Source: a virus
Virus record (IMG/VR): IMGVR_UViG_3300046170_000020
Location: 1 to 31,154 of that record
Direction: 5' to 3' (one strand)
DNA: 31,154 nucleotides
Of this stretch, positions 1,287 to 26,037 are shown in pieces. A program made the translations under genes and the position numbers. The notes under the pieces are model-generated. The model did not search any database. It had not been told where the DNA came from and was given only the letters and a program-made list of their open reading frames with translations. Numbering within the stretch: the first letter of the stretch is position 1; every line of letters begins with the position of its first letter.

Positions 1287-1474
1287 TACTTACCTCCAAA
1301 TGTATTGTTTACTGCGAATGTAAAAGCATCTGTTAATGTCATAGACAAACCCATTTGTTTTAAAGTTTCTCTAATCTTAACAACATCTTTTTTTCTTACT
1401 TTAATGGTCGTAAACATTTCTGTAGTTGTTTGTTTACCACCAAACTTTAGTATTCTAGCTTTGATGTCATTCAT
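1286..1474 (-). CDS. possible ribbon-helix-helix DNA-binding protein, 62 aa
   Basis: I chose the ATG at 1474 (AAAGGAGG 6 bases upstream, TAATG overlap with the previous gene) over a longer start at 1519. The segment FTTIKVRKKDVVKIRETLKQ followed by MTLTDAFTFAVNN fits a short beta strand and two helices, as in ribbon-helix-helix repressors. The similarity is by eye only. If correct, it may regulate the promoter at 1790-1818 that precedes this cassette. Confidence 0.6.
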   Translation of the reverse strand: MNDIKARILKFGGKQTTTEMFTTIKVRKKDVVKIRETLKQMGLSMTLTDAFTFAVNNTFGGK

Positions 1475-1575
1475 TATTTCCTCCTTTCCCATATTAAATA
1501 AAACTCGTGTATTAACCATAAGAACCCTGCAATCATTCCTATGTGTGCAAATGTAGTTATTACTAAGTTAATCAT
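1474..1575 (-). CDS. 33-residue membrane protein
   Basis: MINLVITTFAHIGMIAGFLW followed by LIHEFYLIWERRK: one membrane segment (about residues 2-25) and a basic C-terminus, so N-out/C-in is likely. AGGAGG sits 8 bases before the ATG, directly after a hairpin (1594-1614). The stop overlaps the next ATG. A small holin-like or membrane-regulatory peptide is possible; function unknown. Confidence 0.7.
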   Translation of the reverse strand: MINLVITTFAHIGMIAGFLWLIHEFYLIWERRK

Positions 1576-1593
1576 TATCTGTACCTCCTGTGA

Positions 1594-1614
1594 GGAACTG
1601 CCCTTAGGCAGTCC
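1594..1614 (-). promoter_or_regulatory. intercistronic RNA hairpin with stop codon in its UAAG loop
   Basis: On the transcript, ACTGCC and GGCAGT form a 6-bp stem, extended by two G-C pairs past one bulge, closing a UAAG tetraloop. The TAA stop of the upstream 50-aa gene lies exactly in the loop, and the AGGAGG for the next gene begins 4 bases after the structure. It looks like a translation-coupling or RNA-processing element rather than a terminator, because no U run follows. Confidence 0.6.
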
Positions 1615-1756
1615 CCTTTTCAAAATCTTTTACCCAAACATCAACAATAGTATTTTTTAGTTCAAGCATAAATTTTAACTGTTCTTTGTCTTGAAATAAT
1701 TCTGGTTTGTGTGTTGCTAATGCGATTAAATCAACAATGTTTAGTTCGTTTTTCAT
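1604..1756 (-). CDS. hypothetical protein, 50 aa
   Basis: Begins MKNELNIVDLIALATHKPEL and is mostly helical by eye, ending VKDFEKGTA. An ACAGGA site lies upstream of ATG 1756. A second in-frame ATG at about 1783 gives a version with a lysine-rich leader, as also seen at the 28381/28354 gene. It is the first gene after the promoter at 1790-1818. Unknown function. Confidence 0.65.
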   Translation of the reverse strand: MKNELNIVDLIALATHKPELFQDKEQLKFMLELKNTIVDVWVKDFEKGTA

Positions 1757-1789
1757 TTTTGTTTTTCCTGTGTTTTTGTTCATATCTAT

Positions 1790-1818
1790 TTTATAATTTA
1801 ATTATAACTATTTGTCAA
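1790..1818 (-). promoter_or_regulatory. sigma70-like promoter before the small-gene cassette
   Basis: TTGACA at 1813-1818 and TATAAA at 1790-1795, with a 17-base spacer, are close to consensus. TTATAA boxes occur inside and just upstream, at roughly 1791-1840. It points at the 50-aa gene and the downstream cassette of small genes. Confidence 0.65.
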
Positions 1819-19203: not shown

Positions 19204-19221
19204 TATAAACTCCTAATAGCA

Positions 19222-19240
19222 GGTGGGGATAAACCCCACC
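19222..19240 (-). promoter_or_regulatory. hairpin directly after the major capsid gene
   Basis: GGTGGGG and CCCCACC form a 7-bp G/C-rich stem with a 5-base loop, 13 bases after the capsid stop and 5 bases before the AGGAG region of the next gene. No U run follows. It may protect the capsid mRNA 3' end or reduce read-through, raising capsid expression relative to downstream genes. Confidence 0.6.
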
Positions 19241-19253
19241 CACAAAGCATATA

Positions 19254-20877: not shown

Positions 20878-21807
20878 CTATTCTTCAATCAAATTTTCCC
20901 ATTCAGGGTCGTATGGGATAAAGGAATGACGACATCTATAGCCACCTCTATTGATAAATGGGTCTGTTCCTGACTTTCCTGCCCATCTAGTAGAACCCCA
21001 AGTATCTATCGCTTCTTGCTCAGTAAAGACTTTATTAAGGTTGGCTCTACAAAAGGGTCTAGTGGTAATAATATTTGTGCCTGTGTATTTGTAAGATGTA
21101 ATCCCTGCTTCATTAGCTTTGTACTTAGTAAACTGTCCGTCAAACTGCATTAAACTATCATGTGCCATTTGACTTGCGTATCTACGCATATTGTTTCCAT
21201 AAACATCAGAACCATATTTAGATTGTAGTGTTTCTTTAGCAGTAGTGACTTGTGCTTTGATACTTGGGTTGTTGGAGTATCTATTCTTATCTATAAAATC
21301 TACTAGGTTGTTTATTTCTGTTTCATCACTTCTCTGGTAAACGCCATTTATCTTTGCTCTAATATTTTTAACCATTTGATTAAAGTCTTTGCCTACAATA
21401 GCTGACTGATAAACCTCATTGGCTAATGTGTCTAGGTAGGTGTTTGCAATATCCTCAAACCCACTAAAAGATAAAAACTTTAGTTGGTTAATGACTTCTA
21501 GATTAGGTTTCGTTAATGACTTAAATCTTACAGGGATAGGTAGTGGTTTAATAAACTTTTGATATTCTTTTATAACTTCATCATATTCACTACGGATAAT
21601 ATTATCTACTTCCGATAAATAGTTTTCTTCAATTAATCTTTTAAGGTTGGGTCTTAGTTGAATGGCTAGTTGGGTGGTTAGCTTTTCACCACCTGCGGTT
21701 GACTTAGTTAAGTCAGCAATAATATCATCTTCAAGTTTTTTAAGTACGCCAATAACTCTTTCTTCGTGAGTATCAATTAATCTGTTGAGGATATCCTGCT
21801 TTGCCAT
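20878..21807 (-). CDS. MuF/SPP1 gp7-like minor head protein, 309 aa
   Basis: A helical N-terminal two-thirds and a C-terminal MuF-type domain: TTRPFCRANLNKVFTEQEAI and NRGGYRCRHSFIP with two conserved cysteines and a histidine. These minor head proteins bind the portal interior and affect DNA delivery. Order here is portal, basic cassette, MuF, scaffold, capsid. The ribosome site is weak; a structured element (21832-21872) lies upstream. Confidence 0.85.
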   Translation of the reverse strand: MAKQDILNRLIDTHEERVIGVLKKLEDDIIADLTKSTAGGEKLTTQLAIQLRPNLKRLIEENYLSEVDNIIRSEYDEVIKEYQKFIKPLPIPVRFKSLTKPNLEVINQLKFLSFSGFEDIANTYLDTLANEVYQSAIVGKDFNQMVKNIRAKINGVYQRSDETEINNLVDFIDKNRYSNNPSIKAQVTTAKETLQSKYGSDVYGNNMRRYASQMAHDSLMQFDGQFTKYKANEAGITSYKYTGTNIITTRPFCRANLNKVFTEQEAIDTWGSTRWAGKSGTDPFINRGGYRCRHSFIPYDPEWENLIEE

Positions 21808-21831: not shown

Positions 21832-21872
21832 TAGCAGGTGCAAGAAGTGTGCCTAAGCACACTCCCCTGCTA
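21832..21872 (-). promoter_or_regulatory. nested inverted repeat with stop codon in its UUAG loop
   Basis: Inner arms AGTGTGC/GCACACT (7 bp) close a TTAG loop that contains the TAG stop of the upstream orphan frame; outer arms TAGCAGG/CCTGCTA (7 bp) enclose it, with 2 and 7 unpaired bases between. It ends 25 bases before the MuF start. No U run, so RNA processing or translational control is more likely than termination. Confidence 0.6.
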
Positions 21873-22053
21873 ATTCTACAAAGTTATTCCAACTTGGTGA
21901 TTTTACGGAATTTCCAGATTTTTTCATATTATGAAATCTAGTTGGAAATTTTAAGAAAAATGTTCCTCTACTACTAAAGTGTGTTTCTACTGTTGTAGAA
22001 ATTTCTGCTTCTGCGTTAGAAGAAGTTTTTACTTTAATAACAGTTTCTGGATA
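21853..22053 (-). CDS. orphan frame without a normal start, 66 aa
   Basis: After a TGA at 22054-22056 the frame reads YPETVIKVKTSSNAEAEIST, then TVETHFSSRGTFFLKFPTRF, and ends VELAGECA. The ETHF-x-GRGTFFL-like pattern looks like a conserved small phage protein. There is no ATG/GTG/TTG near its start; the first ATG is at 21927, deep in the protein. Either it is a truncated or frameshifted gene fused to the 99-aa gene, or it uses an unusual start. It overlaps that gene by 25 bases. Confidence 0.5.
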   Translation of the reverse strand, partial: YPETVIKVKTSSNAEAEISTTVETHFSSRGTFFLKFPTRFHNMKKSGNSVKSPSWNNFVELAGECA

Positions 22054-22328
22054 TCACCTTTTTTAAATTTTCTACCATTTTTTTCAAAGTCATTAGTCAC
22101 GATAAAACAAAATACACCCCTATTTATAACCTTGATGTATTTCTTACCTTTATTAACTTCAAAATTATTTTTAAATGCTTCAACTTGGCTATCAAGTTTA
22201 GTGTTATCATGGGCTAATTTATAATTAATATTTCTAGACCAATTCATATAATCTAATGAGGCAGAATCTATTAAATTAGTAATTCCTTGTTCTAGGTTTT
22301 CGGCTTTGTTTTCTACTTTGATTGTCAT
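22029..22328 (-). CDS. conserved-looking small phage protein, 99 aa
   Basis: Has ASLDYMNWSRNINYKLAHDN, KKYIKVINRGVFCFIV and GRKFKKGDIQ, a pattern I associate with small accessory proteins of marine phages, usually outside the head module. It has its own promoter-like sequence (22357-22383) and a strong CAGGAG site before the ATG. The C-terminus (KLLLK) may be altered, since the downstream frame looks protein-like. Function unknown. Confidence 0.7.
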   Translation of the reverse strand: MTIKVENKAENLEQGITNLIDSASLDYMNWSRNINYKLAHDNTKLDSQVEAFKNNFEVNKGKKYIKVINRGVFCFIVTNDFEKNGRKFKKGDIQKLLLK

Positions 22329-23232: not shown

Positions 23233-23408
23233 TATGCTTTAGTCCTTGAACGCAATAATGACATTGGGATGCGTTTCCCTGCTTTATATAATGCTGATAC
23301 TCTTTTGATTAGTGATGCACGTTTTTGTCTTTTAGCACCTTTAAGACCTGATAGATATTTCTTAGGTACTTTCGTTTTTTTATCTTTAGGAACTTTACGC
23401 TTCTTCAA
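23232..23408 (-). CDS. basic protein with KKYLSGLKGAKR motif, about 58 aa
   Basis: KVPKKYLSGLKGAKRQKRAS and LIKRVSALYKAGKRIPMSLL. Very basic, with one acidic residue. The start is uncertain: TTG at 23408 has GAGGG 8 bases upstream and avoids most of the overlap with the portal; GTG at 23417 and ATG at 23465 are in frame but have poor sites. It is the first of five consecutive basic proteins after the portal. Function unknown. Confidence 0.65.
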   Translation of the reverse strand: MKKRKVPKDKKTKVPKKYLSGLKGAKRQKRASLIKRVSALYKAGKRIPMSLLRSRTKA

Positions 23409-24504
23409 CTTCTTCACCCTCAATAGTTGGAGTTGAGAATTGACCAATAGTGATTGCCTTAGCATCTATTTCACTATCTATTGTATTAATCTTTTCATCA
23501 TCATCTACAACCGCTCTAGCAATCTGTTTGTCTACTTCTTTTAAGAAGCTATCTGATTGAACACCACTAGCTTTTGCTTGTTGTAGGAATTGTAAGTCAC
23601 TAGCATAATCTCTAAGGTTGAAACTATCAGGATAAATAATTTCACCATCAAATGTTTGGTTCTGCCATTCAGCAAATAGTTTCCAGATTTGTTCTTCAGC
23701 ATTTTGTAAGTAATCAGCTTTCTCCGATAATCTAGCGTTTAATAATTGAAACTCTGTTTGTAGTGCTATTCCAGATTGTATTCTATCTTGGGTTGCTCTG
23801 ACTGCTCCCATATGTGTAATTCTGTTAATAGCTTCTACCTTCATGTTAATATTATTCATGATACCATCTAATGACTGGGAACTAGGTTGGATAAGATAAG
23901 GTTTTAAATTAGGCTCTAAATCTTCTGGCATTTCAATAATAGAACCTGCACCTGCACTAGCCTCTACATTAGGTGTCTTAACTAAACTTGGGTGGTTAGA
24001 TAATCTTACTAATTGTTCAATCTCGGAGTAATCATTATAGATAGCTTTTTGTAATTCAGCTACGTCATTAAGGTCAGACATACCAATGCCTCGTCTTTGT
24101 GACTTTTGATTGTAAAGAATAACCGCAGGAACTTTTCCTAATTGGTTTGGCATCTCATCAACAAGCATAGGCTTAGCAGTTGAATACCCTTTGTTAAAAT
24201 CTTTTACTCTGTATGTAGAAATATCTTCCATTGTCCAAACTCTAATAGTTGCTACATCTTCAAATAAATCTTCTAGTAGTGTTAATGATGTTAAAACATA
24301 TCTTCCGTTCATACTACGTTCAAAATTCCAATTTAAGACATTCTCAGGAGTGTAAAGACTGATGTAGGGTCTGATGTCTAACTGTATTTCTTCTGCTCTA
24401 GTTTGAGTTTGTACCGCAGGTTTATCTAGGATTGCCCAACAAGTACCATAGATAGATGCATTGACCTTGCATTTCTCTAATGACGTTATTGAAAGACCTT
24501 CCGT
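23395..24504 (-). CDS. portal protein, C-terminal fragment (frameshifted)
   Basis: This frame opens after a TAG at 24505-24507 and reads VNASIYGTCWAILDKPAVQT, IRPYISLYTPENVLNWNFER, then MNGRYVLTSLTLLEDLFEDV to the acidic end EGEEVEEA. It holds the wing and clip/crown parts of a portal (LYNQKSQRRGIGMSDLNDV; GAVRATQDRIQSGIALQTEF). Joined to the N-terminal fragment it gives about 473 aa, the usual size. An ATG at 24312 would make a 305-residue product but is internal. Confidence 0.85.
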   Translation of the reverse strand, partial: TEGLSITSLEKCKVNASIYGTCWAILDKPAVQTQTRAEEIQLDIRPYISLYTPENVLNWNFERSMNGRYVLTSLTLLEDLFEDVATIRVWTMEDISTYRVKDFNKGYSTAKPMLVDEMPNQLGKVPAVILYNQKSQRRGIGMSDLNDVAELQKAIYNDYSEIEQLVRLSNHPSLVKTPNVEASAGAGSIIEMPEDLEPNLKPYLIQPSSQSLDGIMNNINMKVEAINRITHMGAVRATQDRIQSGIALQTEFQLLNARLSEKADYLQNAEEQIWKLFAEWQNQTFDGEIIYPDSFNLRDYASDLQFLQQAKASGVQSDSFLKEVDKQIARAVVDDDEKINTIDSEIDAKAITIGQFSTPTIEGEEVEEA

Positions 24505-24817
24505 CTAAATCAGCATCATCAATAAAGCTTTGTAATTGTGCGTCACCAGTTAATGAACCATAATCTCTTGTTGGTGGTACTCGGAATAGGAAAGACGAAT
24601 AGATTTGCACCACATTCTTACAATGATTATCAATAGGGGTATTTTCTGCTCTTTTAAGATACTCCTCATCAGTTTCTAGGATGTATCTATTTAGCTGATA
24701 GCCATCTTGATAGTCCTGTCCACCGAGATATGACATTAAATGAAAATGCCAATCCTTAAACTTTTCTTCGTAGTGTTTATGTCTTTCTGTTAAAAATTCT
24801 CTACTGTATAATGCCAT
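24422..24817 (-). CDS. portal protein, N-terminal fragment (frameshifted)
   Basis: Starts at ATG 24817 (AGGTGGAG upstream; TAATG overlap with terL), preferred to GTG 24826. YSREFLTERHKHYEEKFKDW, TPIDNHCKNVVQIYSSFLFR and SFNNVIRE are portal-like. After VIRE the frame degrades (QCIYLWYLLGNPR) and stops, while the next frame carries the expected sequence. One extra base between 24469 and 24505 explains it. The portal is the dodecameric DNA channel, so an intact version is needed for a viable phage. Confidence 0.85.
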   Translation of the reverse strand: MALYSREFLTERHKHYEEKFKDWHFHLMSYLGGQDYQDGYQLNRYILETDEEYLKRAENTPIDNHCKNVVQIYSSFLFRVPPTRDYGSLTGDAQLQSFIDDADLDGRSFNNVIREMQGQCIYLWYLLGNPR

Positions 24818-26037
24818 TAACTCCACCTCTTGGGTTTGCTTGGTGTAAACTGTCTTTTGACTGGGTATAAATATTCCACTAAATATCCTAATGCATCATT
24901 CATATGGTCATAATTGTTGTCCTTGTCAGGCACAGTTGTTCCTTCTTTATAAATTTGTCTTTCAATGCTTTTTAACATAGTTTTACAATTTTTGGCAACA
25001 AATAATGTTCGTTCACCTATTCCGTTCTTCAATTTAGTATTCACTGCATTTATTCTATCTCTAATCAGTGGATGATTGTTTCTTACTCGTAAATGAAATC
25101 CTGCATTTTTTAAGATAGCCAAATCAGTGACACCACCTGCTGATGTTTTTCTTTGCTTTGACGCAGGGTCAGGATAAATAAATATATGCTTATCCTTAAA
25201 TCTATTTTTGATTTCTTGTACCATTTCGTCAGTATTAGAACTATAGATAACAATTTCTTCATAGAGATAAATATTATTGCCTTTTAACTCACATATAACT
25301 GCGGACATTGGGTCTATATTGAAGTCCATGCCAATATGTATTTCATTAGTGTCAGGTACATAATTATCCATGACATTCTCTTTTCTATCAAAGTTGTAAT
25401 AAATCTGTCCTGCATAATTAACAAATGAACCCATGTATTCTTGTTGGAATGTTCGTTCATCTAGGTCTGCTTTAGCTTGTTCTATTTCTTGTGGTGATAC
25501 CCTTCCACCATCTAAGGTAGTAAATTGAAATGATGCCCAATTATCTGGGTCCTCATCAGCTTTGGTAAATAAGTTATAACTCCAGTTTCCATATCCTCTA
25601 GGTGTACCACAAAATAATGCTGAACCATTTCTATCAGATAAAGTTGGTCTAAGTATTTCGTACCAAGTATTTTCTCTAATATCTGCGAACTCATCCATAA
25701 TTAAAAAATCTAATCCTACACCTCTAAGGCTGTTCTCATTATCAGCACCCCTTAATGATATAGTTGAGCCATTTCTTAATGTGATAGTTAAGTCAGAGTT
25801 ATTGACGGATTTAACCCATTTATGTGCGGTTAGTTTTTCTATTAAGTCAGTCCAAACAATCGTCTTAGCCATTCTATATGTGGGTGCTACATACCAGACT
25901 TTACGTTTTGGATATCGGCTAAACTTAGCTATCTCTGTGACGGATAAAAAAGTCTTACCCCATCTTCTTCCTGCTATGATTGTTCTAAATCTTTTATCAC
26001 ATTCAAGAACTTGTTTTTGAGGGGTACTTAAAGGCAC
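24817..26037 (-). CDS. terL: terminase large subunit, 406 aa
   Basis: ATPase: Walker A AGRRWGKT (22-29), Walker B FLIMDE (111-116) and the GTPRG coupling motif (144-148). Nuclease: GMDFNIDP with Asp238, YPDPA with Asp290 and YDHMNDAL with Asp377/381. It packages DNA into the prohead through the portal and cuts the concatemer. Complete and of normal length. It overlaps terS by one base and the portal by TAATG. Confidence 0.95.
   Translation of the reverse strand: MPLSTPQKQVLECDKRFRTIIAGRRWGKTFLSVTEIAKFSRYPKRKVWYVAPTYRMAKTIVWTDLIEKLTAHKWVKSVNNSDLTITLRNGSTISLRGADNENSLRGVGLDFLIMDEFADIRENTWYEILRPTLSDRNGSALFCGTPRGYGNWSYNLFTKADEDPDNWASFQFTTLDGGRVSPQEIEQAKADLDERTFQQEYMGSFVNYAGQIYYNFDRKENVMDNYVPDTNEIHIGMDFNIDPMSAVICELKGNNIYLYEEIVIYSSNTDEMVQEIKNRFKDKHIFIYPDPASKQRKTSAGGVTDLAILKNAGFHLRVRNNHPLIRDRINAVNTKLKNGIGERTLFVAKNCKTMLKSIERQIYKEGTTVPDKDNNYDHMNDALGYLVEYLYPVKRQFTPSKPKRWS

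Follow-up and report, generated by a model that had tools for sequence, protein, structure and literature searches.

Hairpins at gene borders and hairpins that are sensitive to ribosomes are known kinds of element. Phage morons consist of a promoter, a gene and a terminator inserted between two phage genes, and both the palindromic elements of Rickettsia and the attC sites of integrons are palindromes that sit at or within the ends of genes and supply coding residues or a stop. Pelagiphages, the group concerned here, have as hosts the commonest bacteria of the ocean. Several systems described in the literature resemble the element reported below: overlap (UAAUG) and RNA-unfolding coupling, as presented in the accessible text of PMC12548453, likewise involves a two-gene junction at which the ribosome of the upstream stop meets a structure; a rho-independent terminator at a stop codon is likewise a gene-end stem-loop, the folding of which would be blocked by the terminating ribosome (excerpts of PMC4824070); and the bypass of T4 gene 60 brings a stem-loop, a tetraloop and a stop codon together (excerpts of PMC3014915). 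For another pelagiphage group, the available part of PMC10504331 reports sigma-70 promoters and no terminators.

The DNA analysed here (31,154 bases, hereafter the window) is that of an uncultured pelagiphage-like virus, its nearest named relatives being the Pelagibacter phages HTVC202P, HTVC111P and HTVC026P (76-80% identity over 2-4% of the query). Its long open reading frames (ORFs) lie on the minus strand, no Rfam family matches the window at gathering score, and the minus strand of the whole window holds only four strong hairpins at a strict threshold, among them the two discussed here (Table 1). Behind the terminase, at 23395-24826, lie ORFs of 134 and 305 aa, where relatives have a single portal gene (about 470 aa); this gene may be split in the window.

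Table 1. Positions of the features making up the two hairpin loci of the window
Feature	Position	Strand	Basis
Putative sigma-70-like promoter: TTGACA 1818-1813, 17-nt spacer, TATAAA 1795-1790	1790..1818	-	sequence
Short leader with SD-like ACAGGAAA (ACAGGAGAAAC in relatives)	1757..1783	-	sequence
Gene 1, 50-aa ORF ending ..FEKGTA-stop	1604..1756	-	six homologous loci
Stop-in-loop hairpin 1, stop UAA 1606-1604	1593..1616	-	folding, covariation, family patterns
Shine-Dalgarno (SD) sequence AGGAGG of gene 2, 3 nt past the stem	1584..1589	-	sequence
Gene 2, 33-aa hydrophobic ORF (MINLVITTFAHIG..), AUG 1575-1573	1474..1575	-	start 31 nt past gene-1 stop
Stop-in-loop hairpin 2, GGGGAGTGTGC-ttag-GCACACTTCTT, stop UAG 21855-21853	21842..21867	-	folding, family patterns
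Accessory gene of slot B, split: 99-aa ORF 22029-22328 and 24-aa ORF 21853-21927	21853..22328	-	L023 comparison
309-aa gene following hairpin 2; weak match to phrog_595, head maturation protease	20878..21807	-	

The initial annotation had described a hairpin with a stop codon in a UAAG tetraloop followed by AGGAGG, and this is borne out by folding. Hairpin 1 (GGGGACTGCC-taag-GGCAGTTCCT) has a 10-bp stem with the UAA of gene 1 within its four-base loop, and a 66-nt stretch of RNA containing it folds at -19.2 kcal/mol (z = -3.18, with one of 200 shuffles as good). A recurrence of the same design had been claimed at 21846-21863, and here the agreement is partial: hairpin 2 does hold the UAG inside a UUAG loop and folds well (z = -4.16, none of 200 shuffles as good), but no AGGAGG lies directly behind it. 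In the window only a short frame (24 aa, 66 open codons) ends in hairpin 2, owing to a split in the gene: the accessory gene of the same slot in L023 is an intact ORF of 218 aa.

Gene 1 has no match in Pfam or PHROG, nor in the phage collection or the bacterial genome contigs searched, and its homologues occupy six loci, five of them diverged (66-68% identical). The L005 copy is identical to that of the window in both protein and hairpin. In the five diverged loci both sides of the stem are altered, giving GGAGCAGGC-GUAA-GCCUGUUCC, with the UAA still within a four-base loop. Relatives of the 50-aa gene are also preceded by a putative promoter and a leader resembling those of the window, and the gene after the hairpin in the five diverged loci is different from gene 2 of the window. 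Genes like the 33-aa gene 2, in turn, are found behind a hairpin in L148, L163 and L168 and behind an overlapping stop in L014 and L017. Regulation specific to the 33-aa gene is ruled out, since downstream genes vary and one gene 2 follows both types of junction. Elsewhere in the window, at 1934-1960, there is a nine-bp GC-rich hairpin with ACAGGAGG directly after it and without a clear gene behind, its CUGU loop being complementary to ACAG.

Both window hairpins are members of a family with the consensus AAGGAGNNNNC-NUAA-GNNNNCUUCUU. The hairpin survey covered 102 sequences (761 kb), namely the window, L002-L004 and a further 98 loci retrieved through protein similarity. This gave 240 distinct strong hairpins, 91 of which lie within 45 nt of a stop; the stop is at the centre of the loop in 26 of these 91 and 3-12 nt off in none, with a second group of hairpins about 24-27 nt past the stop. 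Placement of the stop in the loop is not due to chance. The ORFs ended by stop-in-loop hairpins are unrelated and finish with K-E-x-A. When IMG/VR was scanned with three patterns, 11, 45 and 5 contigs were recovered. Arms were paired in six of the 11 contigs matching the first pattern, all six having the stop of an ORF (17 to 127 aa) in the loop, and none of the five with unpaired arms ended an ORF. The other two patterns carried no ORF condition, and in all 41 of their distinct matches the in-loop stop belonged to a long open frame (15-241 open codons, as against 4-81 in the other frames).

A covariance model built from 27 sequences found 89 sense-strand places among 154 sources (the window and related IMG/VR contigs), reduced to 62 distinct places by merging repeated contexts, near-identical relatives remaining within the 62. 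At 60 of these 62 the in-loop stop closes a frame, a count that includes L172, where the contig end cuts the frame at 15 codons, and that comes from a model which, like several of the patterns, includes a stop-like loop and could miss copies with other loops. The expected conservation of the stop position thus holds in a family far larger than the two window cases. The two exceptions are L094:3938 (a second L094 copy) and L028, in which a leader-bearing 127-aa ORF stops upstream of the stem. Gene-1 proteins, comparable by length at 57 of the 62 places, fall into 21 unrelated families, the hairpin copies themselves sharing ancestry rather than being independent inventions; none of ten gene-1 proteins tested matched Pfam above the curated cut-off. 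Among 15 records searched singly, eight had at least one model match, usually at one or two places.

The model had no match in HTVC111P, HTVC202P, HTVC026P, HTVC112P or DSL-LC06, and a 51-nt blastn query gave weak matches only, none counted as Pelagibacter. Concerning a host origin, a pattern scan of bacterial genome contigs gave 27 matches, none titled Pelagibacter. In L124, L125, L130 and L133 (Clostridia, Saccharofermentans, Ruminococcaceae) a hairpin of like shape has an in-loop stop that ends ORFs of 105-1056 codons; with a T-run behind them, these look like ordinary terminators. The pelagiphages also carry strong hairpins of other kinds. Those after the capsid gene (window 19219-19243; L002:15538-15561; L003:15219-15246; L004:15038-15065), which belong to the second group of the survey above, are unlike in sequence, have no U-tract and begin 8-14 nt past the stop, with GNRA-type loops in L002-L004. 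At L003:4008-4040 and L002:4012-4045 (HTVC111P and HTVC202P) an early rightward gene has a hairpin of 12-13 bp immediately ahead of its SD, AGAGAGA, to which the hairpin loops (CUCUCUCU and UUCUCUC) are complementary; a pseudoknot that could shut the gene is possible there.

Compensatory changes and enrichment over shuffled sequence had been proposed as checks on the structure, and it was not refuted by either. In the 27-row alignment 92.0% of cells are paired, 7 of 11 pairs are changed on both sides, and none of 500 shuffles reached any of five pairing measures; slid partners, used as a control, were 42-55% paired. Twenty distinct hairpins anchored on the loop give the same picture, the outermost two pairs often failing (5 and 9 of 20 unpaired). 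Of 25 rows, 23 retain one G.U pair that would give an A.C mismatch on the opposite strand, which marks the sense-strand RNA. The lysine codon at position -4 is AAG in 38 cases and AAA in none (background AAG 25%) and the glutamate codon at -3 is GAG in 45 cases and GAA in none (background GAG 24%), counts that are inflated by shared ancestry; such exclusive use of AAG and GAG argues for selection on the RNA and not on the peptide. The alignments support the view that the hairpin is under selection as an RNA structure, a change in one arm being compensated in the other.

A peptide signal in the C-terminal K-E-x-A is ruled out, as codon choice and the third residue track the stem and L223 ends in RSGQ. 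Gene 1 of L223 runs into the stem in a different frame, the loop being AATA rather than ATAA with a UAG at its edge, and an eight-A run nearby makes a sequencing slip possible. A role as DNA palindrome or antisense element is disfavoured by the G.U wobble and by the lower scores of opposite-strand model matches at the same places. Another reading sees nothing but a recombination joint, DNA shared at gene borders that would serve the swapping of gene 1 with no role in RNA. Although this would suit the way in which one hairpin and SD block join many combinations of first and second genes, two-sided changes and a strand-specific G.U are unexpected from plain homology and an in-loop stop is not needed, and we regard it as highly improbable.

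Nearly all genes ending in the hairpin lie behind a putative promoter (TTGACA-like, a spacer of about 17 nt, TATAAT-like) and a leader that ends in ACAGGAGAAACTAAAATG or close to it. The relation of the hairpin to its gene can be seen where members of one gene family occupy either position. L153 ends ..YIHTKKVILKEWA (..VILKEWA) with the hairpin, as against ..YIHTKKVILEVK (..VILEVK) without it in L075, at 96% identity; L048 ends ..YEVELKECA with it and L156 ..YEV without; L183 ends ..NSKQHKQYLQNRGTA with it and L144 ..NSKQLSK without; and L111 (with) and L094 (without) form a further pair. In these pairs the relative in second position has another C-terminus and lacks the hairpin. The hairpin, being present when a gene family stands first and absent when it stands second, therefore belongs to the junction and not to the gene. 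In L006-L010 the second gene carries a second hairpin, ahead of a third gene. An alternative 3' end of the cassette, TAATCCTGTATTTACTAA, is seen in L033, L210, L102 and others, some of which can form a weak AU-rich hairpin (GTAAAT / ATTTAC) with the stop again in the loop.

Slot B, the position before the protease-like gene, is empty in L024-L027, L036-L039 and others, leaving a UAAUGAAUG-type border. Cassettes in this slot consist of a promoter-like sequence, a gene, the hairpin and a spacer of about 33 nt at the UAAUGAAUG-type border, with about 48-65 nt from stop to start.

To compare junctions, first genes were picked by their leader alone, the hairpin not being required. Leader matches were dropped if they lacked a TATA-like sequence and TTG upstream, had a GC content above 40% or an ORF shorter than 35 aa, or lay 80 nt or less from a contig end; 67 were classed among the matches listed, and 20 of these, with no recognised next gene (6 with the hairpin, 14 without), were left out. 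Among the leader matches listed, the hairpin is present in 24 of 24 junctions whose next start is more than 20 nt off and in 0 of 23 whose next start is 20 nt off or less, or overlapping. Without loci fetched by hairpin patterns, the figures among the listed matches are 9 of 9 gapped and 0 of 19 close junctions; seven of these 19 are one family (..GHSILS), probably not a slot gene, without which the latter becomes 0 of 12. This stricter test supersedes an earlier one with a looser leader expression, in which 26 of 52 first genes had the hairpin. One SD block, CAGGAGGTANAATAATG, is shared by the two designs. In the overlap design it lies within the reading frame of gene 1 (..QEVK-stop, UAAUG); in the hairpin design gene 1 stops short of it. 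Second genes of the 33-aa MINLALTT type and of the MEQYIFEI type are common to both.

From stop to next AUG, hairpin junctions mostly measure 24-31 nt, and the SD of the next gene begins just past the stem in most copies; it lies outside, so that nothing would be unmasked by opening of the stem. The L006-L010 type differs, with 16-18 nt. At L007:5482-5520, L006:2179-2220 and L010:918-951 the sole SD is the AAGGAG of the 5' arm, which would come close to the AUG once the hairpin is folded. A next AUG at 16-18 nt without an SD of its own is found in L112 and L236 as well, and judging from their layout the L006-L010, L112 and L236 junctions look coupled.

These distances bear on the coupled re-initiation that the initial annotation had suggested. 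A ribosome ending at the loop would open the stem, be held by the AAGGAG of the 5' arm and restart at the next start. That part of the claim which places the terminating ribosome on the stem stands, since it would have to sit there. The SD-like AAGGAG is conserved six bases before the stop (variants GGAG, GGGG and GAGG, with codons there never GAA), the spacing to the next AUG is tight in most copies, and the L006-L010 type offers no other SD; the AAGGAG could hold a terminating ribosome and favour re-initiation, which would be the opposite of insulation. Against this, a strong SD lying free of the stem precedes most gene-2 starts, and the hairpin keeps to gapped junctions (24 of 24, and 0 of 23 close ones), never accompanying the overlap form that already gives coupling. 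In a screen cited by the review PMC12548453 (accessible text), moreover, structure just past the upstream stop correlated with weaker coupling. Coupled re-initiation is in our view unlikely.

The compact, GC-rich stem (mean -15.8 kcal/mol) could also act on transcription, as an attenuator: a weak intrinsic terminator or pause after the first gene, melted by a ribosome at the in-loop stop so that polymerase passes only if gene 1 is translated. The hairpin does come after the first gene behind a promoter-like sequence, 12 of the 27 bacterial matches to the same pattern have paired arms, about half of the 12 being followed by a terminator-like T-run, and termination at tR2 fell from about 90% to less than 10% when a stop was shifted to a site 5 bp ahead of that terminator (excerpts of PMC4824070). 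A canonical rho-independent terminator is ruled out, however, for although the stem is GC-rich and at least 5 bp long, the U-tract is absent (a weak attenuator being possible): the 8 nt past the stem contain 1.26 U on average as against 2.37 in the background, with five or more U in one of 46 distinct hairpins, and neither window hairpin is called terminator-like on its own strand. With the next gene and its SD within about 20 nt, transcripts must read through, and second-position genes lack the hairpin in the slot-2 examples. An attenuator strikes us as not very likely.

The hairpin might instead protect the gene-1 message from 3' exonucleases, as a cap left once the gap has been cleaved. Such an mRNA end or processing element would fit a stem that is stable and closes a promoter-proximal gene at its 3' end, and in the window, HTVC111P, HTVC202P and HTVC026P the capsid gene has a similar hairpin behind it, likewise without U-tract; the stop of the capsid gene, however, lies ahead of the stem, and the need for a stop in the loop is left unexplained. 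We consider this quite improbable.

As regards anatomy, it is very probable from the data above that the element is a modular RNA structure with the stop in its loop and that it alternates with another junction design. The fuller statement, that it is the standard 3' adapter of an accessory-gene slot acting as an insulating or translation-sensitive linker, has in our judgement an even chance of being correct; it is favoured because the hairpin is found at junctions that lack the coupled overlap, and the element more likely replaces overlap coupling, on the evidence of the junctions compared. The transcription unit would comprise the sigma-70-like promoter, a fixed leader with an SD and an exchangeable gene 1. 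The last four codons of gene 1 supply the 5' arm of the hairpin (9-11 bp) and its stop lies in the loop, the SD and start of gene 2 coming directly behind. Whatever gene stands first, the hairpin would close its translation within a self-contained structure and would keep both the gene-1 sequence and the terminating ribosome off the fixed SD behind. Gene 2 would then start independently of gene 1, in contrast to the overlap design, which would make it dependent. With its stop in the loop, the hairpin could fold only while the end of gene 1 is free of ribosomes, and it may therefore report gene-1 translation, either through a delay of RNA polymerase or by shielding the gene-1 mRNA at its 3' end.

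More tentatively, pelagiphages may run a plug-and-play slot, in which a fixed promoter and leader are followed either by a UAAUG fusion or by a hairpin freeing expression of the next gene, incoming genes losing their own C-terminus and gaining the K-E-x-A-stop hairpin; we hold this general picture to be possible rather than probable. If it is true, the two designs offer a natural means of switching a gene pair between the coupled and the uncoupled state, and the hairpin is a compact linker of natural origin, closing one gene and preparing the next, with the stop placed by structure, in at least 21 unrelated small phage genes. The interaction of a terminating ribosome with a hairpin beneath it could be tested directly, the hairpin would be a searchable signature for swappable pelagiphage accessory genes, and it has potential use as a bicistronic insulator part.

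We found no published description of a stop-in-loop element in open-licence PMC text, and within the open-licence PMC literature searched a stop-in-loop adapter common to many unrelated genes appears to be new. Unlike the overlap and unfolding coupling of PMC12548453, so far as its accessible text describes them, the hairpin junction mostly has 24-31 nt between stop and start, an SD outside the stem and a stop in the loop: stop and start neither overlap nor nearly do so, and in most copies no structure covers the downstream ribosome site. Compared with the terminator at a stop codon in the excerpts of PMC4824070, the pelagiphage hairpin has no U-tract and is followed by the next gene within about 20 nt. 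In contrast to T4 gene 60 as excerpted from PMC3014915, the frames show no sign of joining and gene 2 has its own SD and start. Relative to Rickettsia palindromic elements and attC sites, the pelagiphage element is small (about 26 nt), pairs at the RNA level, with a G.U wobble, and is not known to go with an integrase. The cassette is moron-like in having its own promoter-like sequence at a tight gene border that is empty in relatives; it differs from morons in that a standard leader and stop-hairpin are common to many unrelated genes, and in that the hairpin, no canonical terminator, stands between gene 1 and gene 2 and not only at the end.
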